Of a DNA stretch of 64,000 bases, positions 2,063 to 35,873 are shown piece after piece. Position numbers and translations under genes: made by a program. Source of the DNA: Clavelina lepadiformis. Its lineage: Eukaryota; Chordata; Ascidiacea; Aplousobranchia; Clavelinidae. Location of the stretch: positions 4,528,501 to 4,592,500 of the forward strand of contig NC_135243.1 of the NCBI RefSeq assembly GCF_947623445.1. The letters are read 5' to 3'. The stretch's first letter is position 1. The number at the start of each line of letters is the position of its first letter. The notes below the pieces were generated by a model, which was not told where the DNA came from, made no database searches, and saw only the letters and a list, made by a program, of their open reading frames with translations.

Positions 2063-5031
2063 TTAATGAAAACAAAACGGAAGTTTACAACACCAATCCC
2101 TAGCGTGGTCCGCGCACTCTTGCGCCACCTGACCGGTGTTAAATTTCGGCTTGGGTGGCTTCTGTATGCATATTTGTGGTACGCAAGTCCGTGCGGAAAA
2201 CTCCAAAGTTTTTGCGCCTCTCTGCAGACCGGCACCTGCCTGGACGTCACGACGTAGTTCCGCTTTGGTGACTCTCTCAGTGACGCAATCGATCAGCTTG
2301 TAAAAGGCGGTTTTGACGTTTGTGCCTCCGCCTGCGCTCACCTCTGAAAATAAAGCGCCGTATTCCTCGGCTAATTTTTGTCCTCTCTGGAAGGAGACTT
2401 CTCTCTTCTCGCTCAGGTCATTTTTGCTTCCAATCAACATCATCACCGGATTTTCTCCCTGGGTCGTAGTTTTCAGATTCTGCAGCCACACGATGGCGCG
2501 CTCCAAGGAGCGCTTCTCTGTCACGTCATAAACGACAATAGCCCCGTGCGCGTGCTTGATGTAACACTCTGTCGTCGCCCTGGGAGAGCAGGAAATAAAA
2601 TGTTAAAGTTAATTAAGAAGTAAAACATATTCAAACACTTTTACGAATAAATGTGTTGGATGAACGAGGTCACGAAATCGCTGTTAAATATGTTTATGCT
2701 GCGTTAGACGAACGCAGCAATTACGACGCTAAAGCACGCTGTAAAATTGTAACAATAAATGAAAATATGAAGTGTTGTTAGTTTGAACGCGACACTGCGA
2801 TGCACAGCAAATGCTGAGGTGTGCCGCAAACCCTTAAAACTCCGTTATCGAAATATTTTCTTTTAAAGGTCTTGGTTTGGTATTTACGTAAACACATTTT
2901 AAATTTGCTTGCCGTTTTGGATCGATAGATGTCACGTCACATATCGTATTGATTTTTGATAAAAATAAATTAAGCGTAGAAATTTGGCACCTTCGCGTCA
3001 GAACGACGTCAATAAATTGACAAAATGCATGGAGACGGTAGCATACTACTTTATGTATAAAAACTCCAAAAGTGAGCAAATACTCGAGACAGGACCAGGT
3101 ACTACTCTGGTTAAATCACTTAAGGTTGATGGTTGTTCAGCAAGATATTGGCATAAGGAAAAATTGGTTTATCATCTCATGCATTTTGAACAAAAACTGA
3201 TCGGCTTCTCTTTGTCATTATACAAATAACGTTTAATGCTTAAGTAATGTTCGCTAAACCATTTAAAAAACTTGATCTGAAGCAAATTTAATTTCCAATC
3301 AAGCCAATTAGACACAAAATCAAAAAATTCGCCCTATGTGCCATGCCAGCCACTCGAAGAGGGTTGAATTATTCATGAATTGCTTACAGACATAAAGAAG
3401 AAATTTAATGAATACAAAAATGTGCAGAACCACCGAATTCTTCTGAATAGGTCACATTTAAATGTTTGGAATTCAGGTCATTTAATAGGGATTTTGAGCG
3501 CTAAATCTCCCAAATTAGAACATGTTTGATGATTAATGCACAATGATGATCTCATATTCGTATAAGGCATAGCATGTTACGAACACTGACGAATTTTTCC
3601 ATGTTCTCATTTTACCATTAGCAATGGCACTTGAAAAAAAAAAACATGTAAATATCTGGTCATTTCTAATCGACTCTATAATTCTGATACAAGCGTCAAG
3701 GGTTTAAAACTTCCAACGCAATCTGAATTTGAGGGCCCACATAATGTATTGTCAAATGCGGTGTTTACAAAGCAATGCCATTGCATATGCGCCTAAGAAG
3801 TCTTTTATTGGGCCTTTTCTCCCCACAGGACAATTGAAAAATTCTTTACAATAATGTATCGAATGCATTTGCTTAGATCAAATTGCGAAAACAAATAAAA
3901 CCATATTTGGTCATATTACAAACACTGGGACCTACACAAATTTTCCTTTGAAATATCTTTAATTCATACCTTACTTCTCTAAATTTGCCCACGTCTATTA
4001 TGACGACGTTACTACGTATTGGTGACAAACAACCTCTGATTGTTATTTGCGTAGTTGTTATTTACAGATCCTAACTAACTTTACCTGGTACCAATCCAAG
4101 CATTTAAATAGACGATTAAATGTACTGCAGTTGCTATTTTATAGTCGAGGTCAAGCGACAAAGATTAACAAATAGTCATTGTTATACCAGCGGGAAGGCG
4201 GACTAGCGGCCGCATTATGTGATATGAGTTAGCGAAGTTTATCATCAAAGTTGACATTTGCCAAGTTTCGACAACGCCTACTTCATTGCCAATCATGCGT
4301 ATCGTAGGCAAAAAAGCAAGACAGGTTTTTAATTCGAATTTAATTGCGCGTTCAACGCGTGTTTGGGCCACTGAATTTATAACGTGATCAATATATTTAT
4401 GGTCTTTTTCGGCGCGATGTAAATATGCTAAAGCACAGTTGACTTTTTGGAATTATAGTAATCGGTTTGTTAATATTTACATACGATATTGATCACGGCA
4501 TTACAACGTTTGCGAGAATATTTCTACTGCTAAAACATCCTATTTTTCAGTTCAGCTTAAAGCGCTTCAACAAAAGAAACGTTTATTTTCCATTTAGGAA
4601 AAATATTTAAACATCAAAGGTACTAGCAATATAAATCTGAAACTTCGAAACGAATTTTAAGGCTTCGATTGCATCCTCCGGCGTTAAAATTGTAAACATA
4701 CTTGAAACAAACAAACAAACTGCTCGATTCTGTTTCGAGTCAAAAGCGCATTAAAACAATAAAAGCAAACCCTTGAAATTCAAAACCTGCTGTACCTGTA
4801 CATGTCTCTGCCACCCATGTCCCAAATTTGGGCACAGACTCTCTTCGAAGGGACAATTTTTCTCGTGTGTTCCATCACAACGGTCGACCTTGAATTTTCA
4901 TCGAAGGAATTTCGCGCAAACCGAGACACTAATTGTGATTTTCCGGAGCCTGTCTCTCCCACTACTATGATTTTATACACACGATCGTACTTGTCCCGGC
5001 CAGGAACATCCGATAAATAGGGAACCGACAT
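2063..5031 (-). CDS. Ras/Rab-superfamily small GTPase, copy 1 (two coding exons)
   Basis: Model: exon 1 at 5031-4796, exon 2 at 2579-2063, joined through a GT donor after CAG (4796) and an AG acceptor before 2579. Together they give 753 nt, or 250 codons plus stop. G1 P-loop GETGSGKS is at residues 25-32. The G2 threonine is at about 50 in STVVMEH, and G3 WDMGG at 70-74. G4 is SKND, after MMLIG, and G5 is the SA of EVSAGG. Length suits a Ras-like GTPase with an extended C-terminus. The residue after DxxG (Ras Gln61 position) is Arg, so intrinsic GTP hydrolysis may be weak. G4 has Ser for the usual Asn. The C-terminus ends in CCKLPFCFH, which is neither a CAAX box nor a terminal CC/CxC. By family it should be a nucleotide-dependent switch; pathway unknown. 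A paralogue with the same intron phase and position lies at 8921-10818. A leading AG just before the ATG suggests a 5' UTR intron. Confidence 0.88.
2580..4795 (-). other. Intron of GTPase copy 1
   Basis: A 2.2-kb intron between the two coding exons. It holds no recognisable gene. Simple AT-rich sequence only. Confidence 0.75.
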
Positions 5032-8000
5032 GCTGTAGAATTTGGATTATATGAAATAACAAAGGGTCATATATGCAATGTGTCTTAATTTGAGAAATGT
5101 GAAATATTATTACATATACGAAATATGTGTTTAAAATGCCTAATAACTGAATTTAACCAAAGTAACGCGGTTCGTTGGGCTATGAAACAATAGCAACACT
5201 GGTGCTTTAATCATAGGTATTAGGTATAAAGCATAGTGTATGTTTCATGAACATGTTGGTTATAACGTTTAAGGCCAACAATCTTGACCGTTGGGTAATA
5301 GATCTAAATTAGCATATGGTGCTTCTGCAATTATCGCACTTTTATTCACACCGCACCAGCGACATTAAATAAAGTAATATCAAACATTTTTACCTGCTTT
5401 ATTACAAACGCTTCCAATTGAGTTTCCTTCGACGAAATTACATCAGCAGTAACAGAACGTTGCCAGCTGTTAGCAGCAGTAACGATTAACTCAGCCTAAG
5501 AATATGTGAAACAGTACATCGCGTTTTCAGAAGTTCTTAACAAACGGATGCGATTGAATGAACCAGCTGGCTATCGGTTCTCTCTACACCAACAATCTAT
5601 GGAAGGTTTCCCATGTTGCTAACTCCCCGACTACTGATTACAATGTACCGCTACGCTGATTGTACGACCTACCGATCAATGGTTATCGGATTGCAAGGCC
5701 AATTCTATCTGCTGGTTTTGGTTGAAGTATAATGCCTGGCAAAGGTTCAGCTTGGACTATCACGTTTAAGGTGATTATAAACGTGCTGAATCACAATAAG
5801 ACGTATAAGATTGTTGACTTCGCTTTTCTTAAAAGATAATAATCGAAGCACAATAGGTAGGTGACAGCATAACAGGAGAAAACAGATTTCGTATTGTTCA
5901 TTTTTCGCCATCGACTATTGGAGAGCGAAACAATGGTGCTAAGTGTTGTTGCAGTGTTACAGTACGAAAACGTGTCACCAGCATGCAACAAACGAGGAAA
6001 ATAACGGCGAAGTCCCGCGGGCTTAAAACCTAAAAGGCGCTAATTAATTACAGTAGTGCAATAACAATACAATGTCGGCGCAGGTACGAAACTCAATTAC
6101 CTTCGAGTTAAAGCTAGAATAAAAAAGAAACAATTGAATTGTGCCTACAATGAGAACAAGTTCTCCTTCGTCATTACTGACCTACAAATTCAACAAAACT
6201 TTTTGCTGCTGTAATCGCCGTCGCAGATGCTACACTACTTGCAGCTTTTTGCTTTCTTCAAGTAACCAACGCCGTACTGAAAGTAGCGTTTTTCGAAAAG
6301 GCCGCAAATATGTTCAATGGCAAGCATGCTTGAAGCGTTTATCTAAACGGCAATTATTGACTTGGCTTCAAAATTACTTCTAACTAACATACTGACCTAC
6401 TTATAGGCTATAACTTGTCCTGAAACTTTTACAAAAATCCCTAGCTATGTAAATATTGGTAACCTTGTGGCCTACTTCAAGTAATAAACTCAGCGTTCAA
6501 ATAAACCCAGCGTTCCCCAAAAAGGAATCCTGTTAAAAATGCCATCATTAATACATAATGATTAATGACGTAACACTTGGATATGTTTGACAGCCATGCG
6601 CGCGACTTGCATAAACTAAAACCGCAAGCGCGTGCAACTTCAATTCAAGCTTGATAAGACATTGGCATGTCTGATTCTCCAAAACGTATTTCATGTAGAT
6701 TGTAGAAGAATAAGGCGGTATTGATTCGTCTATAAATTAACCTCATGGGTCGAAATGCAGTTCTTCTCTCTGAAGAATTGACTAAATTAGCATTCGTATA
6801 TCGCATCTTGGTTAATTATAAAAGCTTTCGCGTGTTAATTTACTGCGACGCGATCCCGAACGCAAAGCGATTTTCGGGATCGGCGTTCGTTCAGCGGTAT
6901 TTGCCATCTTCAAGCTGCGTATTTACATGAACTCAATGAAAGCTAGACGCTAAATAATGACAACTTTTTCATTAATTTACCTGATGATGGTTTCAGCTTT
7001 CAGTAACCTTGCTGCATTTGACTTTGTGCAGACTAGCAGTCTAGCTCATTACAGCTTCGATACCACTGAAACCTAAAATATGCCTTAAATCTGTCTGTCT
7101 GTAATTTGTTGATCTCAATTCGAATTAGCGACCAAAACGAAACCTTGTCCACGCTTTGAGCATTCAAGTGTGACGACTGACGCGTTGATAACGCATTGTT
7201 AGCAAACATTTTCAAGGTTTTGCGTTTATGCGGTTTATCACATGAGTACGGTGAATTGCGAAACAACAGTAATAAGACTAAACGGTGAACAAGGTTTCAT
7301 TCCCGTGCGTTAGGGTACAAATTAAATGGTAGAACTTGGTAACGACTTGCGGTCATAGATATCTTATATACAACAACAGTTGTTGTAAATAAGATATCTA
7401 TGCTTGCGGTACACTAGTGTTATCAACGGAGTGGTAGCTGTGTTAAATTTTGGTGCTTTGCAACTTTTCGATGTGAAAGCGAAATCCATGTAGGCCTACC
7501 GAGGTTAAGCCAATGTTTTACGTCCAGTGCTCACAGTAACCTGAAGGTTTGAACTGAAAGGAAATATTCCATGTCTAACGCACAGTACCACACGTAATAA
7601 ATTCGAACACTTTAGCACTCTTAGAAAGCTTTTCGATTAAGACTTTGTGGTAAGGGTTATCCAGCCTTGTACTTGGCGGAGAATGGTGAGATTGAGCTAA
7701 TAATATGGAGCTACAAGTTTAACAGCAAAACATTACGTCAAACCTTGCGCATGCGCTGTATGTATCAGTCATTTGCTGTGAGAACTCGCTTGTAACGCAA
7801 TTAACTTAACAAAGTTTAATCTGTCCCGTCTAAAATCGCAATAGTGCTTAAACGCGACACTTTATCTACAGCTGAGCAGTGATGACAGTTACTTCGTATA
7901 AGGTATAAGTTTTTCATGTTTACATAATAACGTATAACTTCCGGGTTAAGACCGTAGTTTGATCATAGCACGGTATAACTACGATTCGTCAGCCTATTCG

Positions 8001-8920
8001 CTGTTTGTGCAGTTCTATAGCCCTAAATTGATATGGGTGAATTTAATGCTAAACAGCATTAAATTGAAGAAATTCTTGTAAATTTGATAAAACGGCGACC
8101 TGAAAAAAGACATAAAATGAATATTGTCAAATTTTGATTGTTGACACATATTCTGAAACAGAAATCTTTATTGTAAAATATGAAACACGGGCGTCTTTAA
8201 CGGAAAGCTCACGAATTACGATGCGTGACATCGCCGTAATTAAAACAAATACGTCACGACATCATTGTTTACATTTTGTTATAAATATGTCGGAAGTCGC
8301 CGAACACTGTTAAGCGAGTCACGTGAAAGAATACCTAAAAACTTAAAATTTGTATTTAGGATTGAATTGAACCAACATTTTAATTTAAAACTAAATTTAG
8401 ATAAGGCAAAAGCTGCTATATGACAACATTTTAAGTTATATAAATTAAAAAAAAACGATAAAAATAGCTTTGAACGTACTTTTTCAGCCGTGAGAAATTG
8501 ACAACCAAATTTGTTTGAGGAAATAGGAGATCCCGTGATAAAAATAAACGTTGCGGTACTTGCACAAAGAAGCAATGACGTCATGGTTATCTTTAGGTGG
8601 CAACAACAACACGAAACAGAAACCAGATTCGTCATTTAAAAAAAAACTCACATTAAAGTCGGTGTACGCGACAGCATTGCAACAACCGATACAAAAACCT
8701 TTGATAAAGGGTTTTGCACAAAATCTACAACAAATAATTTAACATACACTTGTATGTACAGTTGAAGCATATCTGTCGAGTTGAGATCTACGCAATTTAC
8801 AACTTTTCACCTTGATAACCTTTGACCTTTTGTACGTCACAATCGTTGGCAGGCAATAGAACCAAACTTAGATAAGTAATAATATACAACGCGATAAAAA
8901 AGTGGCCGATTCTGTTCGTA
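5032..8920. other. Intergenic between the two GTPase genes
   Basis: About 3.9 kb with no supported coding region. It contains the palindromic insertion at 7346-7410 (listed separately) and a small hairpin near 8040-8065 with 11-bp arms around AATTTAATGCT. The promoter of copy 1 and the 3' UTR of copy 2 must lie at its edges but are not resolvable by eye. Confidence 0.5.
7346..7410. repeat. 49-bp palindrome bounded by an 8-bp direct repeat
   Basis: The core at 7354-7402 has two 24-nt arms around a single A. The arms begin CATAGATATCTTAT and end in CAACAAC/GTTGTTG. They pair with one mismatch. Immediately outside on each side is CTTGCGGT (7346-7353 and 7403-7410), an exact 8-bp direct repeat. 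An inverted repeat inside an 8-bp target duplication is the signature of a hAT-type insertion, here reduced to almost nothing but its ends. It could also be a repair product. It would form a strong cruciform or RNA hairpin. Confidence 0.85.
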
Positions 8921-10818
8921 TTACGTAAAACAAAGCGGTATTTTGGAGCAGCAGTATTTCGTCCCTTCCACGCACAATTCACCCACAGAGTGAACGTTTT
9001 TAGGCTTTTCTCCCGGTTGTTGAATTATCACTGGGGCGTCTGTAAATCTCCCTTTCGCCTGTTTTCCTGTTTTCTTCAGGGTGAAAGAGCCCTTCTCCAG
9101 GTCACCAATGTCCTTTTTAGCGGCTCGTTTTTGATTGTCGTCAAATTTCTCAGTGATGCATTCAATCAAACGATCGAACGCTTTGTCAATATTGGTGGCA
9201 TCACGTGCACTTGCTTCGATAAATAGAGCCTTGTGCTTTTGTGCTAGCTTCCTGCCTTCTTCTGATGTCACCGATCTCTTTGATCTCAAATCAAGTTTAT
9301 TTCCAAGGAGCATTGTGATTGGACAATCCGGTTTCAGAATCTCTTTTAATTGGTCAAGCCATTTCGCGGCGCTTTCGAACGATCTAACTTTTGTGATGTC
9401 ATAAACGACTATCGCTCCCAAAGAGTATCTGTAGTAGCAGCATGAACTCTCCCTAAAGTGAAAGGGTTTTAATTAGAATGTGTTTTCCATTACTTGTAGT
9501 TCAATGTGGCTTTACCAGATTTGTACGACGATAGGATACAATTTTATTATTACATACCAAGAAAACAAAAGCAAATAAGCCTATTTCAAAATTTCTTTCC
9601 AAAAGGTCAAATTTGATTTATGTAGGATGCATATGACGTCATTAAATGTCGTCATTTGTACTAATTTTATTATTAGTTCGCAATGGTTGGCAGTTGGTCA
9701 TTGCCAACAGCTTGTAAAAAATTAAGTCTAAAATATACCTTTCACTGCGGCTTCTGTGTTACCTTTAACAAGAAACCAACGAAAATGCCTGATTATTTGG
9801 TTTTATCGTTTCCCACCGTTATCGCAAAATTTTCATCGTCAGTGAATAAACCTAACGTAGGAAATTTGGCGGGCTATAGGACGTTATTTATTGTTTGCAC
9901 TTGATTTAGAAAAACCGGTTTGGGGCGCGCAGAAAAGATCAAAGGTATCTTTGTGCTGTCATAGATTGTTAAACATTCATCATTGCGTCACTTAATGATA
10001 ACGAAATAAGAACGCTCTTATGACCAAGCGATGAATTTCGCTCGATGTTCCAGGTTTCAACGCCAGCTGCGCGTCATAAATGTTGTTTACTGGTAAAAAT
10101 CTTGGCTGGAATTTTACTTACACAGCAGAAAAGCAAATTATGTTGCATATTTCAGGCACGTTTAATAGCAGCTCTGTTTTCAACTTGTCTCCAAATTTTT
10201 ATTCCGGTTTGTAATGAACGTGCGGAACTGAACGAGTAATACGAACCATAAATTGCGAATAGGACTGTACTTAACGTAAAGTTTTCCGTTGTTTTTGCAA
10301 ACGCAGCTGTTCCTGGGTCGATTTAACTGTGAAACGCCAGACGAGCCCAAGAGCAGGATGTAATCAAACGCTTATAAAATGCGTGCTTATTTTCAGTAGC
10401 ACTTCCTTATGAAATTAGAACTCATTTTTGTATTCGTGCGTTATCGTCAAATAGTTTACGGTCAAATGGTGTTTGCTGCCTTCTACGGTATGAGCTTTTA
10501 ACCGATAAATTCTTTTTTCCGATCTAGTAATTGTTTTGTGGAATCCGGTTTTATAAGACAAACTTCTTCATTAAGAAATAAAATAGCCTCAAAACACGAG
10601 CAATTTAAGAATTACCTGAACAATTCTTTGCCCGCCATATCCCATAGCTGAGCGCAGATTTTTCTTCCTTTCAAAACTTTCCGAGCGTGTTCCATGACCA
10701 CTGTTGGTTTGCTCTCTTCGACAAAGACATTCTGCGTAAATCTGGACACGATTTGAGATTTCCCAGTTTCTGTATCACCGACGACTATGATTTTGTACAC
10801 ACGACTGTATTCCTCCAT
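8921..10818 (-). CDS. Ras/Rab-superfamily small GTPase, copy 2 (two coding exons)
   Basis: Model: exon 1 at 10818-10616, exon 2 at 9452-8921; 735 nt, 244 codons plus stop. The start is the ATG before GAGGAATAC. An AG just upstream suggests a 5' UTR exon. G1 is GDTETGKS (residues 14-21), with Glu in the place of Ras Gly13. The G2 Thr is at about 39 (PTVVMEH), and G3 WDMAG at 59-63 is followed by Lys instead of Gln. G4 GNKLD is canonical. G5 is EASARD. The tail ends YCCSKIPLCFT, matching the unusual CC-x-P-x-CF tail of copy 1 and lacking a CAAX box. The intron interrupts the codon just after the G3 region in both copies, in phase 2, so they arose by tandem duplication. Family role: GTP-dependent molecular switch; the partner is not deducible. 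Confidence 0.88.
9453..10615 (-). other. Intron of GTPase copy 2
   Basis: A 1.16-kb intron with GT donor below 10616 and AG acceptor above 9452. Nothing else is recognised inside it. Confidence 0.75.
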
Positions 10819-20242: not shown

Positions 20243-20595
20243 TGTGATTCTGTTGATGATTTCTCATGTCCATCATCATTCAGTCAGTATTAAGGCTTGA
20301 TCATCCTTAAAGTCTTCATAACGGCTGCTAAGTTTCACAATTACTTGTTAACTTGCCCTAAATTTTGTAATATAGTAAGGTAAATTTTCAAACAAACCTT
20401 AATAGACAAAACCAATTTTTTGAACAACGGTCTACATCAGAAACCTGAAAAAATAACATTATATGACAGCTGTAATTGGTTTGTTAATATGCTGCGTACA
20501 TTTTCGTGTCGTTTGAAATACGTGCGAACCGGTTTTTCATGTCTTTAATCTTGCAACGAAAGATAAAAACGCTGACAATTGTCATGGCTTAAAAC

Positions 20596-21019
20596 TAGGG
20601 TTGTGCCGCGAGGAAGATTATTCGGGTTCGTGCGAACCCAAATATTATGAAGGTCGACACGAACGAATCCCGAATCTATTCGTATTAGAATGAAATAACA
20701 AAAATTTCCTCCAAAAGTTGTCAAGTCTTGCTTCTAAAATGACGTAATCGATAAACAAGTCGCTTTCTTTCGAAAAATAGTGTTTAAAAAACGATCGAAA
20801 AAGCAAAATCGTTAGGAAACGACCTTCATTGTAAGTACTGCTGACTCTAGTTTAGCATTGTCGGGAAACTAGATCATAATTTTTAACAAAAGTCAGTAAA
20901 TTTATAAGTAATATTGTATTCGGGTTCGCCATTGTTGGTATTCGTGTTCGCCCGAATCTTCCATAAAGGCGATATTCGGCGAATCTATTCGGGTTTGGGT
21001 TCGTATCGGCGCATCCCTA
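20596..21019. mobile_element. hAT-type MITE, 424 bp
   Basis: The ends are inverted: TAGGGTTGTGCCG on the left and the complement of TAGGGATGCGCCG on the right. The perfect 8-bp duplication CTTAAAAC flanks it (20588-20595, 21020-21027). Subterminal TTCGGGTTCG motifs repeat in both orientations. No transposase is encoded, so it must be mobilised in trans. Copy B of the U1 unit lacks it, which confirms an insertion. Confidence 0.9.
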
Positions 21020-21101
21020 CTTAAAACACACAAGTTTAAATGGGAATACTGGCTGTGGTATGCCTGCGAAAAACATCTTGATGTGGTTGCTTCAGCTAGA
21101 A

Positions 21102-23826
21102 CAGTGGTCCCCAACCCCCGGTCCGCGGACCAGTACCGGTCCGTAGGTCAGTTGGTACCGGTCCGCACAGGGTACTGTTAATTAGTGTGGGAACCCCTTT
21201 TGTTGCGTGGGCACGCTTGAGTTCTCGAAATCGATTGTCTGGAGAGGCCATTTTATCGCATAATAACCTTAGTTTATTACATCACAAGCCCTTGTTATGC
21301 TAAAATTCTTGAATTGTTATCTTGAGTGTATCAGCTAGTCTTCCTAATTTAGTATCCCTTGCCCATTCTAACTGCCCGATGCCCTTTAATCAGGAGAGTA
21401 AGTTTGTTACATTCAGTTTTTTAGGAGGCGCGCAAACTTTTATTTTCACAGGCTGGGGTTATTTAGCCAGTATTCAAGAGTATTTTTGCTGAGGTTCAGG
21501 GAGTTTTGATTTTTGCTAGAGTTGAGCTTTGGCATGATCTTGAACCTGGACATTTACGGAGAGCACAGTTTTATTCTTTTTTAGCAGTACAGTTTTAGTA
21601 TCTCAGTTGTTTGTTAATTCTGGTACGTGTTCTGCATTGCAGCTCCAGGATAATTCAGCTTTCTTTTTTTGGTGAAGTTATTCTCATTTTAGCTATTTTA
21701 GTGAAGCTATATCTCATTAAATCTTTATAACAGTCAGTTATTGAGTGTCGAAATTTATCAAACATGAGTACCAAACAGACGTCATTAGAAAGCTTTCTTG
21801 TGAATGGGAAAAGGTCCATTGAAGAGACAGAAGAAGAGTCTTCAACATCAAAGAAACAGAAAACTTTTAACAGACAATACCATGAGTCCTACTTGAAATA
21901 TGGATTTATCGCGACAGGTGATACCCACGCACCAACACCGCTCTGCATACTTTGCGGTAACAGGCTCTCAAATGAGTCAATGAAACCGTCAAAACTGCTC
22001 CGCCACTTGAACAGCAAGCACGCTAGATCAAAAGACAAGCCCCTGGAGTATTTTGAAAGAAAAAAACGGGAACACAATGGACAGGAAAAATTTCTGAGGG
22101 TCACTACAACAATAAATGAGAATGCTTTGAGAGCATCATTTTTGGTGGCTAACCGTATTGCTAAGGCGAAAAAGCCATTCACCATTGGTGAAGAATTAAT
22201 CTTGCCCTCCACTAAAGACATTTGCCGTGAGCTACTAGGGGAGGCTGCTGTTAAAAAGATAATATCTGTGCCTTTGTCAGCGAGCACTGTGACTGGGCGC
22301 ATTGAAGAAATAGCCGAAGACATTGAAGCACAATTGTTGGAGAGGATTAACACATCACCGTGGTATGCACTCCAGGTTGACGAATCTACAGATGTCGACA
22401 ACAACGCAATACTACTTGTTTATGCACGATATCTTTATCAGGAAGATATTCATGAGGATTTGTTATGTGCGCTATCCTTACCAACCAACACCACAGGAGC
22501 AGAACTATTCAAGTCACTGAATGGTTATATATCAGGAAAATTGCAATGGTCTTTTTGTGTCGGCATATGCACAGACGGAGCTGCTGCCATGACCGGACGA
22601 TTGTCTGGTTTAATTTCTCGGATTAAGGAGGTTGCACCTGAGAGTGAATCTACTCATTGCATCATTCACAGAGAAATGCTGGCAAGTCGAAAAATGTCTC
22701 CGGAATTGAACAGCGTATTGACTGATGTCGTTAAAGTTATTAACTACATCAAAGCACACGCCCTTAACTCGCGTTTGTTTGAGCAACTTTGTGAGGAGAT
22801 GGATGCAGAGCACAGACGCCTACTCTTGCACACAGAAATAAGATGGTTATCCCGAGGAAAATCGCTAACCAGAGTGTTTGAACTACGAGAGCCATTGCAA
22901 AGATTTCTTTCAGAAAAGAAGTCACCTCTGGCTGCACATTTCAGTGACAAGGTATGGGTCGCAATACTTGCTTATCTGTGTGACATGTTTAGGCTGCTCA
23001 ATGAACTCAATCTCTCCCTTCAAGGGAAAATGACAACAGTTTTCAAGTTGGCAGACAAAGTAGCTGCATTTAAAGCGAAACTGGAGTTGTGGGGAAGGCG
23101 CGTGAATAATGGTATTTTGGATATGTTTCAAACATTAGCGGGGATGTTGGGCGAAACTGAGCCTGAGCCTTCATTTTCGAAGTTGGTGCACGATCATCTG
23201 TCTTTGCTTTTGAAAGAGTTTGAGCGCTACTTTCCAAGCACAAAAGACCCACGAACTGGTAAAGAATGGATGCGCAACCCATTTGCCAGCAAACTAGGTG
23301 AATCTAGCATGTCTGTGCAAGAAGAAGATCAACTGCTGGAGATTGCAAATGACGCCAGCCTTAAAGCTATGTTCCACACAACAACTCTGCCAGTGTTCTG
23401 GATTAAGGTCATGGCGGAATACCCGGAGATCGCCACCACAGCGCTTAAAAGCCTATTACCATTTCCGACATCCTATATGTGTGAAGCGGGGTTTTCTGCA
23501 ATGGCAGCAACCAAAACAAAGCAACGGAATAACCTGGACGTTAGCAAGACACTTCGAGTGTCATTATCTCCTATTATCCCCAGATGGAATCGTCTCGTTG
23601 CAGAGAAACAAGCTCAGGGTTCTCATTGATTTAACGATGGATTGAAAATTTTGCAAATTTAAATCACTTGATATTCGTTTTAATTCAATTTCAATTTCGT
23701 TTTGAATGCATGTTCAAATACAAGAAAATTAAAAAAAATCTGCGTCTCCCCCACCCTTTTAGTGGGTCGCGGTAGAATTATCAAACGTAGACCGGTCCGC
23801 GGAGACAAAAAGGTTGGGGACCACTG
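21102..23826 (+). mobile_element. hAT-1: full-length ZBED/Buster-like hAT transposon
   Basis: A 2725-bp element with TIRs sharing CAGTGGTCCCCAACC at both ends, each followed within 30 bp by a GGTCCGCGGA-type motif. The 8-bp target duplication AGCTAGAA is perfect on both sides (21094-21101, 23827-23834). It encodes one uninterrupted transposase (21764-23629). Intact ends, intact target duplication and intact gene all point to a recent insertion. Confidence 0.95.
21764..23629 (+). CDS. hAT transposase, intact, 621 aa (ZBED5/FAM200-like)
   Basis: A single uninterrupted reading frame. The N-terminus is Ser/Glu/Lys-rich with KKQK as a likely nuclear signal. A BED-type zinc finger follows, with C61-x2-C64 and H81-x4-H86. 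The RNase-H-like catalytic core carries Asp206 in QVDESTD and Asp271 in CTDGAAAM. The conserved CIIH (299-302) and Trp361 in RWLSRGK follow. The C-terminal hATC dimerisation region holds the candidate third acidic residue Glu574 in MCEAGFSAM. All residues expected for cut-and-paste transposition are present. The nearest known relatives are domesticated vertebrate ZBED5/ZBED8/FAM200 proteins, but the TIRs and target duplication here show it is still in an element. The ATG is preceded by TCAAAC, a tolerable start context. Confidence 0.95.
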   Translation: MSTKQTSLESFLVNGKRSIEETEEESSTSKKQKTFNRQYHESYLKYGFIATGDTHAPTPLCILCGNRLSNESMKPSKLLRHLNSKHARSKDKPLEYFERKKREHNGQEKFLRVTTTINENALRASFLVANRIAKAKKPFTIGEELILPSTKDICRELLGEAAVKKIISVPLSASTVTGRIEEIAEDIEAQLLERINTSPWYALQVDESTDVDNNAILLVYARYLYQEDIHEDLLCALSLPTNTTGAELFKSLNGYISGKLQWSFCVGICTDGAAAMTGRLSGLISRIKEVAPESESTHCIIHREMLASRKMSPELNSVLTDVVKVINYIKAHALNSRLFEQLCEEMDAEHRRLLLHTEIRWLSRGKSLTRVFELREPLQRFLSEKKSPLAAHFSDKVWVAILAYLCDMFRLLNELNLSLQGKMTTVFKLADKVAAFKAKLELWGRRVNNGILDMFQTLAGMLGETEPEPSFSKLVHDHLSLLLKEFERYFPSTKDPRTGKEWMRNPFASKLGESSMSVQEEDQLLEIANDASLKAMFHTTTLPVFWIKVMAEYPEIATTALKSLLPFPTSYMCEAGFSAMAATKTKQRNNLDVSKTLRVSLSPIIPRWNRLVAEKQAQGSH

Positions 23827-24026
23827 AGCTAGAACAGCGTGGTCCAACTTCTTTTCATCGCGGGCCAATGTTTTTAATTAGAACTGAAGAAATGTGAAAT
23901 TAGTACTGTAGAACAATGTGACATTGATATTACAACTGAAATTAGAACTGAAAAAAGGTCTCTTTTTTTATTAAAACTGAAATTAGAATAGTTCAAAATT
24001 TAGCTATTAAAATAATTAAATGCTGA

Positions 24027-25770
24027 TCAATGTGACATCTGCGGTCGAGGTTCTTCCTCGACAATAGCGTTGGTATCCACGGGAATCGTAGTTGTGGCCA
24101 TGCGAAGGCAAGCCTGAAGAGCCTCGTTTCCAAGTTGATTTCGATTTTTAGTTTTAATATTGTTCATTGCTGAAAACGTACATTCACAAATGTATGTACT
24201 TCCAAACATAGAGTACAGCTTCATAGCAGCATCTTTTAAAAGGGGAAACCTCTCCTTTGAGACAAACTTCCAAAAGCTTTCAGGATTTTCCATTTTCTTT
24301 GAAAGCAAAAACTGATCGTTCTGAAGTTCACATATTTCGAGTTGAAGCTCTGGTGGCTGTGTACTAACTCTCACGTTCATGGGATTGTTGAATAGCGAAA
24401 GAGGAATCTTGAGCTTGCAAAAGTCCGCAAACCTGCTGCTAAATTCATTGATCAGCAAATCTATAGTATTTTCGAATTGAGTAAAATCGGCACTTGGGTT
24501 TTCTTCTTTGATGACAGAGCAACAGGAAAAATGAGTCAGATCGTTTCTTTCCAAACAGTCCTTAAACAAGCCCAATTTCGAGCGGAAACCTTCTACATGT
24601 CCCACTAAATTTGAAATGCTCTGCCCTTTCCCCTGCAAACTCAAATTTAGCACATTCAAGTGATTTGTTATATCAGTTAGAAAAGCCAAGCCGCTAAGAA
24701 ATTCATTGCTTTGAAGCTGCGCTTGAAACGCATCTGTGTTTTCGATGCGCTCCTCCTCAAAAAAAGAAAGAATTTCTTTGCGCAGGCCAAAGAAATGTTT
24801 TAACACTTTGCCAGCGCTCAACCATCTGATACTTGTGTATTGAGGAAGGTCGCTGAATTAAGCATCGACTTCGTCCAAGAATGACATGAATCTTCGATGC
24901 CGTTGAGCTTTATTACCACCCCTTATTAGATTAACCATCTTCACAACGCTTTGCATGACGTCCATCATTTTCAAAACTTTTCCGCAAAGTGCTTCTTGGT
25001 GAATTATGCAATGCAGCGTTATGCAATCAACTCCATTTTGTTTCAGCAATCCGACAAGATCAGTTTTGTTTCCCACCATGGCCTTTGCCCTATCCGTTGC
25101 AATACAAGAGCATTTTTTAAAACCTCCATACTCAGAAACAACAGAGTCAAGAGCTGCATATATGTCAGAACCTTTAGTCCCACCACTTAATGGATGAATT
25201 TCAAGCAATTCTTCGTGAACAAGAAAATCCTCGTCTACTATTCGAGCAAATATCAGCAATTGGCTAATATCACTCACATCCGTACTCTCATCCAAAGCAA
25301 TTGAAAAATATCTGCATTTTCCCATTAAGATTTCCAACTTACAAGAAACGTGTCGACTTAAATTGGTCACTCTCCTTGCCATTGTCTGATGCGACAAAGA
25401 CACGGTTTTAAACTTTTCAGCAACTTTTTTTTCGCCAAACACCTCTGCCATTTTGATCGCACATTTCTTAACCAATTCACCTTCTCGAAATGACTTCCTT
25501 TCTTTTGTGAGGATGAGTGCAACTTCATATGAAGCTTCAAGGCTTGTTTTTTGGCGGCTCACAAAAGTATACATCGCTGCCACTTGTTTCTCCTGTTTGT
25601 TCTTGAGATTTTGCAATACGTTCTTTCTTTCATTACCTCCATATTTTTTAAACTTATCTTTGTGAAAAGCCTCATAATGACGCTTGATGTTGTACTCTTT
25701 AGCAGCTGAAACTGTTTTTTTTGCATACCAGACAGAGTGGTTTCCCTGAATTTTCTACGAATAAGTAATC
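24027..25770 (-). pseudogene. hAT transposase of hAT-2, one in-frame stop and lost N-terminus
   Basis: Reading right to left, the frame opens at about 25770 with LFVENSGKPLCLVC. This begins a BED finger (CLVC, then KRHYEAFH). It continues through the catalytic blocks ALDESTDVSD and CIATDRAKAM, then CIIH, IRWLSAGK and the hATC-like tail FGSTYICECTFSAM. The only internal break is a TAA at 24858-24860, after EVDA; sequence on both sides stays in the same frame. No ATG lies upstream of the zinc finger in frame, and a stop precedes LFVEN. Family resemblance is to the transposase fused in vertebrate GTF2IRD2. So this copy is probably non-autonomous now, though only lightly damaged. Confidence 0.88.
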
Positions 25771-25864
25771 TTATTCCCATTTATTTAAAAATGACCTTTC
25801 TTTTTTTACAAGTACTCATTCTGTAGCTTTGTTGAAGTGTTTAAACTGGTAAGTTTTAGGCTAG

Positions 25865-26333
25865 CAGCGTGGTCCAACTACTTTTGACTTACGAGCCACT
25901 TTACAAAAACGTGACAACTTGCAGGCCACTTTGTTCATTCACATCTATAATGCCCACTATTATGACGTAACACACAAATGGATGATGCGATGCAATGATG
26001 CTGTCGCAATTATTGGATTATGCCAAATTTCTGAGTGTTGCGCAATAGCCAGTATTAGGGTTCTAATTTAAAAGATACATAACATGAAAACTGTGGAATA
26101 TTTAAAGGAAACAAAAACGTCCAGAACACTAGGTAGGCTACATATCAGCGTTTAAGAAGCCTAGTTGTACTGACGAGACCTGATAGGTTGAAACAGTATA
26201 GGCCCTGCTGTGTTCAACTTTGAATTAAATTTTTGACATTTTTTATCCAAATGCTATACTTGTTCTAATTGAAATAAATTAAATCAATACTGTGAAAGCT
26301 CGCGGACCGCAGACCTGTAGTTGGACCACGCTG
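25865..26333. mobile_element. 469-bp MITE nested inside its own parent family
   Basis: It begins CAGCGTGGTCCAACT and ends with the complement, the same TIR as the surrounding hAT-2. GGCTAG is repeated on each side (25859-25864, 26334-26339), a partial rather than perfect 8-bp duplication. There is no coding capacity. It sits in the 5' flank of the hAT-2 transposase gene and may separate it from its terminal promoter. Confidence 0.8.
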
Positions 26334-26676
26334 GGCTAGGACAACAAGGCGTGTAACTAAAACCTAAGAGAACTTTTTGGACAAAGTGGTATTGTTACGC
26401 ATTACAAAGGATCATTCACAAAGTTTTTGTCAATTACAATAACAAATAAACAAAATATGAAGTTATGTTGCCAGATTGAATCAAAGCTTACTATCAGTTC
26501 GCGGGCCAACTTTGGCCCGCGGGCCTGCAGTTGGACCACGCTGAGCTAGAAGATCAAAACGCATTAAAGCAATCTTCTACCTGGAGAAACCGCGCGCAAC
26601 AAGCTTGAAGGATCGTATACTTAGTAACTGAACTGTAGTGTACCAGAAAGCTTGTTCAGAATAGATTAGGTATAGT

Positions 26677-26840
26677 TTGGGGATAGCGCGAACGCAGTCC
26701 CCACTAACAGAAATTATACGACCGAGTTACCCACATTTGGGGTAATCGCAGAGGTCAGCTCAGTCGAAGTGCAATGACAAAGCCTCGCCCTGGGCCCACC
26801 GCCTGCCGGATCGCGGTGAAGACCCTCGTCAGGTAAGTAT
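26677..26840 (-). ncRNA. U1 spliceosomal snRNA, copy A
   Basis: The minus strand reads ATACTTACCTG at the 5' end, the sequence that pairs with 5' splice sites. It continues through CCAGGGCGAGGCTT, the stem-loop II loop ATTGCAC (U1A-binding), CCCCAAATGTGGG, an Sm-like site AATTTCTGTTAG, and the 3' hairpin GGGGACTGCGTTCGCGCTATCCCC. Length is about 164 nt, as in animals. Stem-loop I pairs CACCGC with GCGGTG around the loop GATCCGGCAG, which differs from the usual U1-70K loop GATCACGAAG. The gene is identical to copy B. Transcription would be by Pol II from a PSE in the sequence above 26841, not identified here. Confidence 0.95.
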
Positions 26841-27608
26841 GAGTTGGAATTATGGAACAAACCATTTTCAACAATGAAAATAATTTTTTATTTGCAAAAG
26901 ATTTAGAAGCACTTGTTTGCATTAAATTAATTAAAAATTTCAATTATCCAGTAGAATCGGAATATTCTTCTTTTGTAAGTACATTTTCACAAGTTCTTTC
27001 ACATAAAATACGCATGTGATATCTTTTTACAAATATCAAACTTGAACTAAAGCGAAAAATGTTAGTAACTAAATTCAATGTATCATAACATTTAAATTAG
27101 TATGACGTCATCACGCGCCAAACATGGGAAAGTGAAAATTACAACCAGAAGCGTACTTAGCATTGCGTTAAAGACACCAAAAGGTTCTAAAAGCTGGGCC
27201 TAAAATTCCCGTGTTTGTCCACCTCGTCCAAAACACACAAAGCTCAAAACGTTTGTGTGTTTAAGCGTCAAATACCGCTTTCAAACGCCTTGAAATGAAA
27301 TGTATTGTTTTATTTGTATGTACAATAGTTGTCAAATTAATCTGCATGTTTGAAAAGCGATACACAACCTGTGCAGTATCACTGCTTATTACATGTTGTT
27401 CTGTGTAAAACAGTTCCCAACTCATACCAATGTTCGTGAACTCACAGCAAACAAGTCATAACGGCTGCTACGTTTCACAATTACTTGTTAACTTGCCTTA
27501 AATTTTGTGACACAGTAAGCTAAATTTTCAATCAAGCCTTATGAGACAAAACCATTTTTTTAAACAACAGTCTACATCAAAAACCTGAAAATATAACATT
27601 ATACGACA

Positions 27609-28123
27609 GGTCATTAAATCCAATCAGCTGCAATGAGAAAGCTTTGTAACGGTCACAAATGCAGCGCCACATAAAAAATAGTGTGTTAGGTGGGAAATTA
27701 TGAAAATTAAATTTTGCATTACTTCTAAAAATGTTTGTACTTCAGACAAAATAACCTGCTTTGCAAAGACTTGCAACGAATCGCGTAATGACAAAAGTTT
27801 GGTCAACTGGCCTCAACGGTTTAAAAGTGATGAGGGCGGATTCAAAATGAAACAGTTATTTAGAAACCTCCAAACTAGCAAGTAGGTAGCTTGCACATTG
27901 AAGGAAACATGATCGTTTTGGGATTAGAAGCTACTTGGACAATTTCGCAAGCGCTCACTTACAAATGTCATTTGAGAAAACAAATGATTCATCGTTTACG
28001 ACTACTTGGCAGAAAAAAGTGCACTCAAGTGTAAACAAAGCAAATACTGACAGTAAGTAACTAATATGATCATGCATACTGCATGTCTACCCAATATACA
28101 CGACCATTTTCATTTGGAACTTG
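27609..28123. other. Insert in U1 unit B, left part
   Basis: This sequence is absent from copy A. No coding region or terminal inverted repeat is recognised. A short frame at 27700-27885 has no domain. Confidence 0.5.
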
Positions 28124-28484
28124 TGTAACAAAAATATATCACATGTTATTTATAGTATCTTACATTTTACCGTTTTTATGATGTGTTAATTCTCTACTTG
28201 ATGTGCGATGATTACTTCACGTTGGTTTGGTTTTAGTTGATTAATTGCGATTATCCTTGTTTATCTCACGTTTTGTGCGTTCTTATCCAATCAATAGCTT
28301 AAAACCTCACCTTTTGTATTCTATAAAAGCCGTTGTAAAGTGATTTAAGGTCGTCGGTTTGGTTTTGGGTCCTGGGGCAGTTTAATAAAATTAATTGGTT
28401 CCTTGGGTTTTACTGTTGGTGTCGCGGTTCACCGTGAATGTGGGAAGGCAATCTGGCATTCGAAAGCAAGAATTTTCGGTTACA
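28124..28484 (+). mobile_element. Solo LTR of a Ty3/gypsy-type retrotransposon (361 bp)
   Basis: It begins TGTAAC and ends GTTACA, the inverted ends typical of gypsy LTRs. CTTG flanks it on both sides (28120-28123, 28485-28488), a 4-bp target duplication. Inside are a TATAAAAG box (28322-28329) and AATAAA (28384-28389) in the expected order on the plus strand. No internal region or second LTR follows, so it is most simply an LTR left by LTR-LTR recombination. No gene is encoded. Confidence 0.8.
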
Positions 28485-28488
28485 CTTG

Positions 28489-29490
28489 TACTGTACAAGT
28501 TCAAACTAATTGCTGAACATGAAGTCAGAAAGAATACTGGAGTCCGTAATGCTTGTAAATTTTAAAAGATTGCAACGACTTTATGGCTGATTTTGAGATG
28601 CAAATCCCTTTGGAATCGGAAAATTTCCAACGTCGAATACGAAACTTTACAAAGAGCCTACAATGTCAATCGAGGTAAAGTCAGTTGGAGTTTGTTGCCA
28701 AAGTGCTTTGTCCATACATGCTTTTGAGCATTAGAAGCTTGCGCAAAAACCCTAAAATATTTGTTTAGTGCTGTGTACATTGAAGTAAGGATGTTTCTAC
28801 GTATTAACTTTTGTAAAATCTCAATAAATTTCAGTGTAGCAACAAGCAAAGTTCATCTTGGTAACAATTTTCTTTAGTAACATTTCTTCTTCCTTTTTGT
28901 ACGGCAATGGACTTTGCACAATCGTGATTTCTGACACAGAAAGCGATTGGGAGCTTAATTGCCTTGGAGTCAAAGCTAAACTAAAAAATAGTAACGTTCG
29001 GAGTAAATTTAATGAACTAGTTTAAAGTCATTTTGTTACTGACAGTCAAGTTAATACAATTATCTGTTTAACTAGTATTACAAATTAACTAAACGTTCAT
29101 GAACAGTTTATGTTTATCAAAGCAGCTGTTAAAAGACATGAATCTGTGAATAAACAGCTCAAACTACTGTCATATTGCAAATCTGAAGTCAGAAAGAATA
29201 ACTTGAGATTTAAACGATTTTTTGACTGATTATGATATATGGCAACGGACCTCGCACAATCGTGATTTCAGACACGGAAAGCGATTAGGAACTCCATTGT
29301 CAACGTTGATGTTGTCAACTAAAACACTGATAACTTTGGAGTAAATCTAATGAACATAACAATTGAAATCGTTATCAGTAAACCGGTCAGATATCTTAGG
29401 TAATTTGTGTTATGTTGTGCGACCACGAGGCCGAACTAAAACTTAAGGGATTGTAACGTTGAAGGTCTAATAAACACCTAAATCAATGAA
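28489..29490. repeat. Insert in U1 unit B, right part, with internal degenerate repeats
   Basis: The phrase GCACAATCGTGATTTC followed by GACAC and GAAAGCGATT occurs near 28917 and again near 29256. The phrase TGAAGTCAGAAAGAATA occurs near 28520 and 29184. This suggests a decayed internal duplication. No protein or RNA gene is recognised. Confidence 0.5.
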
Positions 29491-29802
29491 GCTGTAATTG
29501 GTTTGGTAATATGCTGTGAACATTTTCGTGTCGTTTAAAATACGTGCGTACCGCTTTTCACACCTTTAATCTTGCAACGAAAGATAAAAACGCTGACAAT
29601 TGTCATGGCTTAAAAAAGAACAAGTTTGAATGTGAATACCGGCTGTAGCGACATCTTGATGTGGAAGCTTCAGCTAGATTGCTAGAAGATCAAAACGCGT
29701 AAAAGCAATCTGCTACTTGGAGAAACCGCGCACCACAAGCTTGAAGGATCGTGTATATCTAAATTGAACCAGAAAGCTTGTCTAGAGTTGATTAGGTATT
29801 GT

Positions 29803-29966
29803 TTGGGGATAGCGCGAACGCAGTCCCCACTAACAGAAATTATACGACCGAGTTACCCACATTTGGGGTAATCGCAGAGGTCAGCTCAGTCGAAGTGCAA
29901 TGACAAAGCCTCGCCCTGGGCCCACCGCCTGCCGGATCGCGGTGAAGACCCTCGTCAGGTAAGTAT
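29803..29966 (-). ncRNA. U1 spliceosomal snRNA, copy B
   Basis: Base-for-base identical to copy A over the whole RNA, including the 5' ATACTTACCTG, the ATTGCAC loop, the Sm-like site and the 3' hairpin. Flanks differ between the copies, for example a CAAC/GAAC difference within 35 bp of the 5' end. Identity limited to the gene implies purifying selection or gene conversion. Both copies could be expressed. Confidence 0.95.
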
Positions 29967-30567
29967 GAGTTGGAATTATGGAACAAACCATTTTGAACAA
30001 TGAAAACAATTTTTTATTTGCAAAAGATTTAAAAGCATTTGTTTGTTATGAATTAATTAAAAATGTCTATTATCCAGTAGAATCGGAATATACTTCTTTT
30101 CTAAATACATTTTTACAAGTGCTTTCACATAAAGTACGCATGTGATACCGTTTTACAAATATCAAATTTAAACTAAAGCGAAATAGGGTAGTAAAGAAAT
30201 ATAATGTATCATAACATTTAAATTAGTATGACGTCATCACGCGCCAAACATGGGAACGCGAGAATCACAACCAGAAGCGTACTTAGCATTGCGTTGAGGA
30301 CACCAAAAGGTTTTAAAAGCTAGGCCTAAAACTCCCGCGTTTGTTCACCTCGTCCAAAATGCACAAAGCTCTAAACGTTGGTTATTTTAAGTGTCAAATA
30401 CCGCTTTAAAACGCCTTGAAATGAAATGTATTCTTCTATTTGTATGTACAATAGTTGTCAAATTAAACTGTACATGTTTGAAAAGCGATGCACAACCTGT
30501 GTAGTATAACCGCTTATTACATGTTGTTCTCTGTAAAACAGTTCCTAACTCATACCAATGTTCGTAA

Positions 30568-31605
30568 ACTCACAGCGAACAAGGGTTTCAGGGTTAATCC
30601 ATCTTTTGCAGCCTGGCATGTTTTTCGCCTCAGGACTGATATGCCGTTTTCTGAGGTATTGTTTCCAGAAAAAGCCTACTGGTTTAGTAACTAGGTTTTT
30701 GTCCAGTCATTTAAGCCACTGCCTAAACTGATTAAAGCGTGTCTTGCTGAGTAACACATTTTCCCATAGATTGTGATGTAATCACATGACAAGTGGAATA
30801 TATACATTAGTAAGCTAGTAGAGATTTGTGGATGTAGAATTTCTGCTTTCAATCCTCGTAAGCAATAATGGTTTTCATGCAAATATTCATTTTTCATTAC
30901 AAACGAGTCTGTGAAAATATAAAGCAAAACCATGACTCTCTCGGCAAGTTGACGCGGGTATCTAGTGGACAGGGAGGTTGCTGCGAATAACACTGTATGA
31001 TTTAACTGCAGTAACTGTATGGAAAAACTTACATACTAACGTTTACAGGTCACAGGGCCAGTATATTCCACAGACAGTAGAAACGAGTAAATGAGTCATC
31101 GATAATGAAAACAAAGTTATCGGTCTTACGCCGGCAACTTAAGACATGTGGTATCCAAAGTATGCTAAAACAAAGAAGTCATCCCGCCAACACCAATAAT
31201 TGAATAAATTCCAGCATTTTCATCATTTTAGCCACGTCATCTACCCTAGTATACCTTTTTTCGGCATGCGGACGCTCCTAAGTTTGTGATGCAATAATAT
31301 ATACTTTATCTATGCGCAAGCAAGAATATAGAAAAGGTTAATAAGCAGGCTTGATAATTATGATGCAATAAAAGCGTAGGCTACTTTGGCTGCTGGGCTA
31401 GTTCTAGGCTTTTTGTTCTTGTGATCTCCGTTCTCTCGGCACAAGCCAGGTTGATTGATCTGTTATAAATTTCTAAGTTTGTACAATGCCTCTAAAGAGA
31501 AGAGCGTATCCGTTGAAGGAAAGACATGAAAGCTGCAGAAAGAGAGCGTAGCAAAAAGTATGTTGCTGACCGCTTGGTAATGCCAAAAAGTTACGTTATT
31601 AAGAT
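30568..31605. other. Intergenic, no gene seen
   Basis: AT-rich sequence after the U1 units. Frames here have no domain. From about 31489 a degraded reading frame starting MPLKRRAYPL leads toward the pogo-type fragment, with stops. Confidence 0.45.
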
Positions 31606-35499: not shown

Positions 35500-35873
35500 C
35501 AGGGGTTCTTAACCTGTGGGTAATTACCCACTAGTGGGGAATTTGAGGATTTCAAGTGGGTAACGAAACACAATGTTAAATCTGGAATCAGATTTGCGTT
35601 GTGCAATCTCAAAAACAGAGCCTGACATTGACTCGATCGTCGCTGAAAAGCAAGAACAAAAATCGCATTGACGTTGTTTGAAACTACGTAAACGTTCTTT
35701 AATGCTGTTCTTCTCATTGAAATTGTTCTTTTTGTTAAATACCATTGTGCTTTGGGATATGTCACACAGGTCACTAGGATTCATTTTGATTTTTCAGTCA
35801 GTTTTAAAAGTATGTGGGGAATATAGGTTTATTAAGTAGCGGAAGTGGGTAATGAAAAGGTTAAGAACCCCTG
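35500..35873. mobile_element. hAT-type MITE, 374 bp
   Basis: Ends CAGGGGTTCTTAACCTGTGGGT and the inverted AAAAGGTTAAGAACCCCTG, which share CAGGGGTTCTTAACCT. The perfect 8-bp duplication ATGTAGGG flanks it (35492-35499, 35874-35881). Terminal wording is like Charlie-type hAT elements. A minus-strand frame inside (35784-35524, starting MNPSDLCDIS) has no clear transposase motif and may be a leftover of an internally deleted parent. Confidence 0.9.

Follow-up and report, generated by a model that had tools for sequence, protein, structure and literature searches.

The window analysed here, a stretch of 64,000 nucleotides of the ascidian Clavelina lepadiformis (C4:4528501-4592500, contig C4 being NC_135243.1), contains two transposable elements of the hAT superfamily, termed hAT-1 and hAT-2, that stand side by side and share a single target octamer, AGCTAGAA. 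We consider it probable that this arrangement reflects the repeated use of one excellent target, in which two hATs entered one octamer and a further hAT-type hit affected the same octamer in a second, duplicated copy of the locus (unit 2). The site TTC-AGCTAGAA-GAT, located downstream of a duplicated U1 small nuclear RNA (snRNA) gene, would represent an exceptional match to the extended hAT target. One element would have inserted there and duplicated the octamer, and the other would later have inserted into one of the resulting octamer copies, giving rise to three. A further hAT would have used the same octamer in unit 2 and then excised, leaving a footprint. Sequence preference would suffice for such a series of events, given a genome whose hAT ends number well over a thousand.

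Two hAT elements around one shared octamer

A preliminary description of the window had reported that the octamer occurs three times at this locus, that each element possesses its own perfect 8-bp duplication and that the middle copy is common to both. The coordinates of the features (Table 1) and the ends of the elements, whose first 13 bases equal the inverted last 13 in both cases, confirm this arrangement. The sequential insertion of one element and then of the other into the duplicated octamer, as proposed there, is supported, each element carrying its own duplication. Two further copies of AGCTAGAA are found in the window (6112, plus strand; 39182, minus strand) without an adjoining element. 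As shuffled windows contain 1.98 +/- 1.39 copies per window, the number of octamers is in itself unremarkable; their position is not, since all three copies at the locus adjoin ends of hAT-1 or hAT-2. A structural scan for element ends with a threshold of 10/13 detected 4 elements in the window, and 20 shuffled sequences gave 0-4 each. Since the shuffles reach such numbers, the scan alone is no proof, which comes from the 13/13 ends and the family copies found elsewhere.

The genome searched comprises 209,060,895 bases in 95 contigs. The exact junction consisting of a hAT-1 end, 8 bp and a hAT-2 end occurs once in it without mismatch, as does an exact hAT-1 end followed by N8-CAG; the two elements were not found joined elsewhere. 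The sequences next to three further hAT-1 copies, all full or nearly so, and next to the three hAT-2 relatives examined are different. Because the junction is unique and the relatives of both elements are flanked differently, we reject the idea that the pair is a composite unit. It might also be argued that two alleles with one element each were joined in series during assembly. Such an artefact is hardly credible, as a serial join exactly at the octamer that leaves both elements correctly flanked would be an unusual error, and as a passage of the assembly paper gives HiFi data at 117-fold with a quality value (QV) of 67.4 (PMC10884593). In addition, contig C3 harbours a second complete pair built in the same way, its middle octamer being mutated.

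Table 1. Features of the hAT pair, of the surrounding tandem duplication and of other shared-octamer loci (window positions unless a contig is given)
Feature	Position	Strand	Details
Unit 1 of head-to-tail duplication	20316-27455		carries hAT-0, hAT-1 and hAT-2
hAT-0, hAT-like	20596-21019		terminal inverted repeat TAGGG...; duplication CTTAAAAC; 74 bp left of the pair
Target octamer, left copy	21094-21101	+	AGCTAGAA
hAT-1, 2725 bp	21102-23826	+	ends CAGTGGTCCCCAACC / GGTTGGGGACCACTG; terminal 13/13 match and family copies elsewhere
hAT-1 transposase	21764-23629	+	open frame of 621 residues
Target octamer, middle copy	23827-23834	+	AGCTAGAA; common to both elements
hAT-2, 2709 bp	23835-26543	-	ends CAGCGTGGTCCAACT / AGTTGGACCACGCTG; terminal 13/13 match; transposase on minus strand
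hAT-2 transposase	24027-25754	-	broken: two stop-free pieces, N-terminal part out of frame
Nested short element within hAT-2	25865-26333		hAT-2-type ends; flanks GGCTAG / GGCTAGGA
Target octamer, right copy	26544-26551	+	AGCTAGAA
U1 snRNA gene, unit 1	26677-26840	-	125 bp from 3' end to right octamer
Unit 2 of duplication	27456-30583		different insertion of ~1.9 kb near 27610-29485
Presumed hAT excision footprint, unit 2	29672-29687	+	AGCTAGAT-TGCTAGAA, at the same octamer
U1 snRNA gene, unit 2	29803-29966	-	115 bp from 3' end to footprint
Shared-octamer pair, complete (L010)	C3:23213582	oriented minus	GTCTAGAC + 239-bp CAGGGG-type element with CAGGGGTTTCCAACC-type ends + GTCTGGAC + 306-bp hAT-2-type element + GTCTAGAC
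Shared-octamer pair, partial	C2:15639516		CAGGGGTTCCCAACC-type hAT end + CTATAGAC + hAT-1-like element + CTATAGAC

The preliminary description had further regarded the two elements as unrelated and their transposases as members of different hAT branches. This view is not tenable, since the hAT-1 protein is 30% identical over 587 residues to that of the intact hAT-2 relative on C6 (E 4e-62 in a single comparison). Unbroken frames are present in the hAT-2 relatives on C4 (595 residues) and C6 (600 residues), and the relative on C5 is broken like the window copy. The hAT dimerisation region PF05699 is recognised in hAT-2 with E 3.9e-8 for the window piece and 4e-9 for the C6 relative; hAT-2 is thereby placed in the hAT superfamily directly and hAT-1 via hAT-2. 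The hAT-1 protein alone reached the cut-off of no Pfam family and retrieved no hAT chain in a single-sequence PDB search, and a joint hAT-1/hAT-2 profile matches the C-terminal part of Hermes chains (E 0.0033). Residues D206, D271, W361 and E574 of hAT-1 are invariant in an alignment of three rows; D206, D271 and E574 may be the catalytic D, D and E, and W361 the tryptophan of the inserted domain. The two transposases show homology along most of their length and belong to families that are distant from each other but use targets of the same kind.

The short element nested within hAT-2 is present in the hAT-2 relative on C4, and the C6 and C5 relatives show the empty site. Its flanks have GGCTAG in common, possibly representing GGCTAGGA after the loss of two bases on the left. 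Near their left end, the hAT-2 relatives L089, L091 and L093 carry about 30 extra bases, which are absent from the window copy (23835-23900). Another short hAT-like element in the window (35500-35873) has ends CAGGGGTTCTTAA matching at 13/13 and the target duplication ATGTAGGG.

Target preference of both families

The site lists exclude one element with a mismatched duplication as well as loci with unequal flanks or a single end. On C1 and C2, 30 elements of the hAT-2 family were retrieved by both ends; 29 of them have perfect 8-bp flanks and one has one mismatch; the 8-bp target duplication of the hAT superfamily is thus present. Of the distinct perfect sites, 33/37 are TA-centred in the hAT-2 family and 13/14 in the hAT-1 type, the latter including two sites of a sister family (L032, L034), compared to a background of 7.4% of window octamers. 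On C7, the flanks of a full hAT-1 copy do not match each other. Both families hence use a TA-centred nnnTAnnn target of the Buster kind, as had been surmised for the window octamer. Similar CTATA-rich flanks were seen at several hAT-1-type elements (L019, L020, L023, L041).

A CTAG centre is about 177-fold enriched among the hAT-2 sites (12/39, with the element at C1:10915856 counted twice), and with these 39 sites and a list of 14 hAT-1 sites the octamer AGCTAGAA alone exceeds the window mean about 100-fold when scored for hAT-2 and 12-fold when scored for hAT-1. The preferred target, derived from 37 and 14 script-collected sites, is longer than the octamer and covers about 14 bp, ATR-nTCTAGAn-YAT, the motif extending three bases past it. 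Within the hAT-2 half-sites (n=74), T is found at position -2 in 82% and A at position -3 in 65%, and in the hAT-1-type half-sites (n=28) T is found at -2 in 75%; C at -3 occurs in 0 of either set. When scored with this motif, the inferred empty site TTC-AGCTAGAA-GAT reaches 1,069-fold the window mean for hAT-2 and 138-fold for hAT-1, and for hAT-2 it belongs to the top 4.7e-5 of window positions, i.e. about 5 in 100,000 are as good or better. These values substantiate the very strong target preference that the preliminary description had suspected.

An 8-bp duplication with the consensus nnnTAnnn is likewise described in passages on the Buster-type hATs TcBuster and Drosophila Mar (PMC3517528, PMC3499496), one of which also mentions short internally deleted derivatives (PMC3517528). 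In contrast to these, the families analysed here have their own ends and transposases and a CTAG-centred extended motif. For hobo and others in Drosophila, a passage likewise reports a 14-bp palindromic motif that reaches up to 3 bp beyond the 8-bp duplication (PMC3276498), whereas in the present families the outer position disfavours the base given by the element's own end. Clusters of miniature inverted-repeat transposable elements in pineapple are likewise side by side, non-nested and attributed to a common short-target preference (PMC8449440); those elements are Mutator-like and lie in (TA)n tracts, whereas here hATs have single octamers in common.

The tandem U1 duplication and the site in unit 2

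The pair is located in unit 1 of a head-to-tail duplication, both units of which contain a U1 snRNA gene, and unit 2 is devoid of hAT-0, hAT-1 and hAT-2. At the corresponding octamer, unit 2 instead contains a doublet in which both octamer copies are kept and two inner bases are altered, each of them complemented. Two more distant relatives possess a single octamer (AGCTATAT in L075, AGCAACAT in L076). Excision of hAT elements can leave footprints in which the bases beside the lost element are replaced by their complements. The doublet in unit 2 has exactly this form, and its sequence points to an origin by excision. Excision footprints are likewise described for Buster-type hATs, those of TcBuster being of a hairpin type and ascribed to hairpin formation in a passage of the account (PMC3499496). 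The ~1.9 kb insertion in unit 2 showed no clear target duplication, and the overlap between its matching flanks is just 2-7 bases.

Units 1 and 2 differ at 96/1087 aligned positions (8.8%). Between the window hAT-2 and its nearest relative, on C4, 21/1997 and 6/679 positions are different (1.0%), the window copy having 11 private changes in 1967 columns. The corresponding count for hAT-1 and the copy nearest to it is 10/2724 positions (0.4%), with 7 private changes of the window copy in 2690 columns. Given these distances, the duplication appears considerably older than either element and unit 2 was probably hit independently, with the reservation that a copy staying put as donor may predate what its nearest relative suggests. 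Alternatively, one element might predate the tandem duplication and have been copied to both units, followed by its excision from unit 2 only and by the later addition of the other element to unit 1. Such a history would save one insertion, as two explain everything, and would account for the same octamer being affected in both units; it nevertheless appears unlikely in view of the difference between the divergence of the units and that of the elements, and is viable only with a window copy that never moved and acted as the donor of its relatives. Transfer of an element from unit 1 into unit 2 by gene conversion is likewise not supported, as the 150-column segment of the site differs at 20/128 positions. 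The most alike full segment between the units (5/150) overlaps the U1 gene by column reckoning.

A scan of 14 other U1-like loci (3.1-3.3 kb, some overlapping), which misses elements too long for such loci or cut by their edge (hAT-2 in L072), revealed neither a hAT flanked by a perfect duplication nor any of the ends sought, and does not support a general attraction to U1 genes. Insertion near an snRNA gene is likewise known from Dada transposons, which target snRNA and tRNA genes (PMC3706591, PMC8869645). The elements studied here differ from these in being of hAT type, in lying 115-125 bp outside the gene and in not being found at the 14 other U1-like loci.

Occupied targets and shared octamers in the genome

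After the first insertion, the two octamer copies would read TTC-AGCTAGAA-CAG and CTG-AGCTAGAA-GAT. The element end hence brings the favoured T to position -2 and, for hAT-2, also a G to position -1, plus the avoided C at position -3. Just outside the octamer, CTG is found at 1/449 exact hAT-2 ends, which is the one in the window, and at 5/1444 wider-pattern ends. This amounts to 6/1893 ends at 4 distinct places compared to 27 expected from the window CTG frequency (Poisson P 1.3e-6), with the window and the C2 pair each counted from both sides, and with the ends not all independent since they include copies in larger repeats, several of which have one common flank.

Three shared-octamer pairs were found in the genome, namely the one in the window, a complete one on C3 and a partial one on C2. 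The C3 pair reproduces the complete window architecture save for one changed base in the middle octamer. For the C2 pair, the start of the left partner was not found in ~6 kb upstream. Two other loci were discarded: C8:2174112 (CTG-CTCTAGCT-CAG) has no matching left-element start within 0.8 kb, and the octamer at C1:22336068 (CTG-CTAAACTG-CAG) is not TA-centred. If native cross-family scores are used, 0.9-2.7 junctions are expected at 947-1893 insertions and up to 7 at 5,000, and the native own scores of hAT-2 give 4 to 23. The three pairs therefore agree with plain target preference without any need for guidance, and are above most versions of self-avoidance unless there were far more insertions. 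Counting such pairs against chance thus gave a divided answer, in that their number fits the native preference and exceeds most estimates that include the penalty at position -3. With at least three shared octamers in the genome, the case in the window is instructive but explicable.

Several observations weigh against the repeated use of one excellent target. Because the element end places C at -3, the scores of the occupied copies drop; they amount to 32 and 72 in the case of hAT-2 and to 3 and 10 in that of hAT-1, whose motif is based on 14 sites. With these lowered scores, only 0.07-1.2 junctions are expected and the probability of at least three is 0.0001 to 0.11; moreover, the C3 pair stems from a mismatch-tolerant search and thereby from a wider class than the exact ends used in the estimate. 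As the three pairs lie above this expectation, either the penalty at -3 is overestimated or many more insertions took place than were counted. An independent hit in unit 2 was also unlikely beforehand, with 0.1% to 5% for 225 to 10,000 insertions, and the nearness of U1 is no general attractor given that no such hAT was found at the 14 other U1-like loci.

The excess over the expectation from occupied-site scores taken at face value would be explained if the terminal sequence of the first element, or transposase bound to it, drew the next hAT to the adjoining octamer, a guidance that the preliminary description had suggested and for which the favoured T at -2 and the G at -1 supplied by the ends also speak. 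Since the ends supply C at -3 as well, a base present in none of the 74 and 28 half-sites, guidance is disfavoured and we regard it as quite improbable. The scarcity of CTG at the ends, even if these are not all independent, points in the same direction, and guidance becomes superfluous for the pairs if native scores are used. The low value of an occupied copy might alternatively be circumvented by separate insertions at the intact site in two haplotypes, which recombination or repair spanning the octamer later united. As both families score the intact site much higher, each separate hit would be likelier than a hit in an occupied copy. We nonetheless deem this course of events very improbable, as it requires a hypothetical exchange within 8 bp between misaligned copies, and as each of three pairs of the same architecture would need such an exchange.

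If the two elements of the window used the same octamer one after the other, as we prefer to assume, divergence and target scores point in opposite ways with regard to their order. The distance of hAT-2 exceeds that of hAT-1 (Fisher P 0.005), which favours hAT-2 as the first element, whereas the products of the target scores, 138 x 72 versus 1,069 x 3, favour hAT-1.

We tentatively suggest that these hAT families might be self-avoiding. Their motif shuns C at position -3, which is given by every CAG...CTG end, and an occupied target would lose its attraction by about 14- to 45-fold; the U1-linked site would be so good that it was still hit at least three times in two duplicates. Among the literature titles and abstract openings searched, a coverage that mostly excludes subscription journals, none names two hATs with one common duplication or self-avoidance of hATs.

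A puzzling coincidence is hereby turned into something that can be measured: the strength of site choice by TA-centred hATs, the change in value of an occupied site and the frequency of common duplications. Unit 2 with its footprint provides a natural control inside the same window. Should further data bear out the avoidance of C at -3, the target motif together with the element end would tend to spread copies apart. If they do not, shared octamers would be a regular product of hAT-rich genomes.

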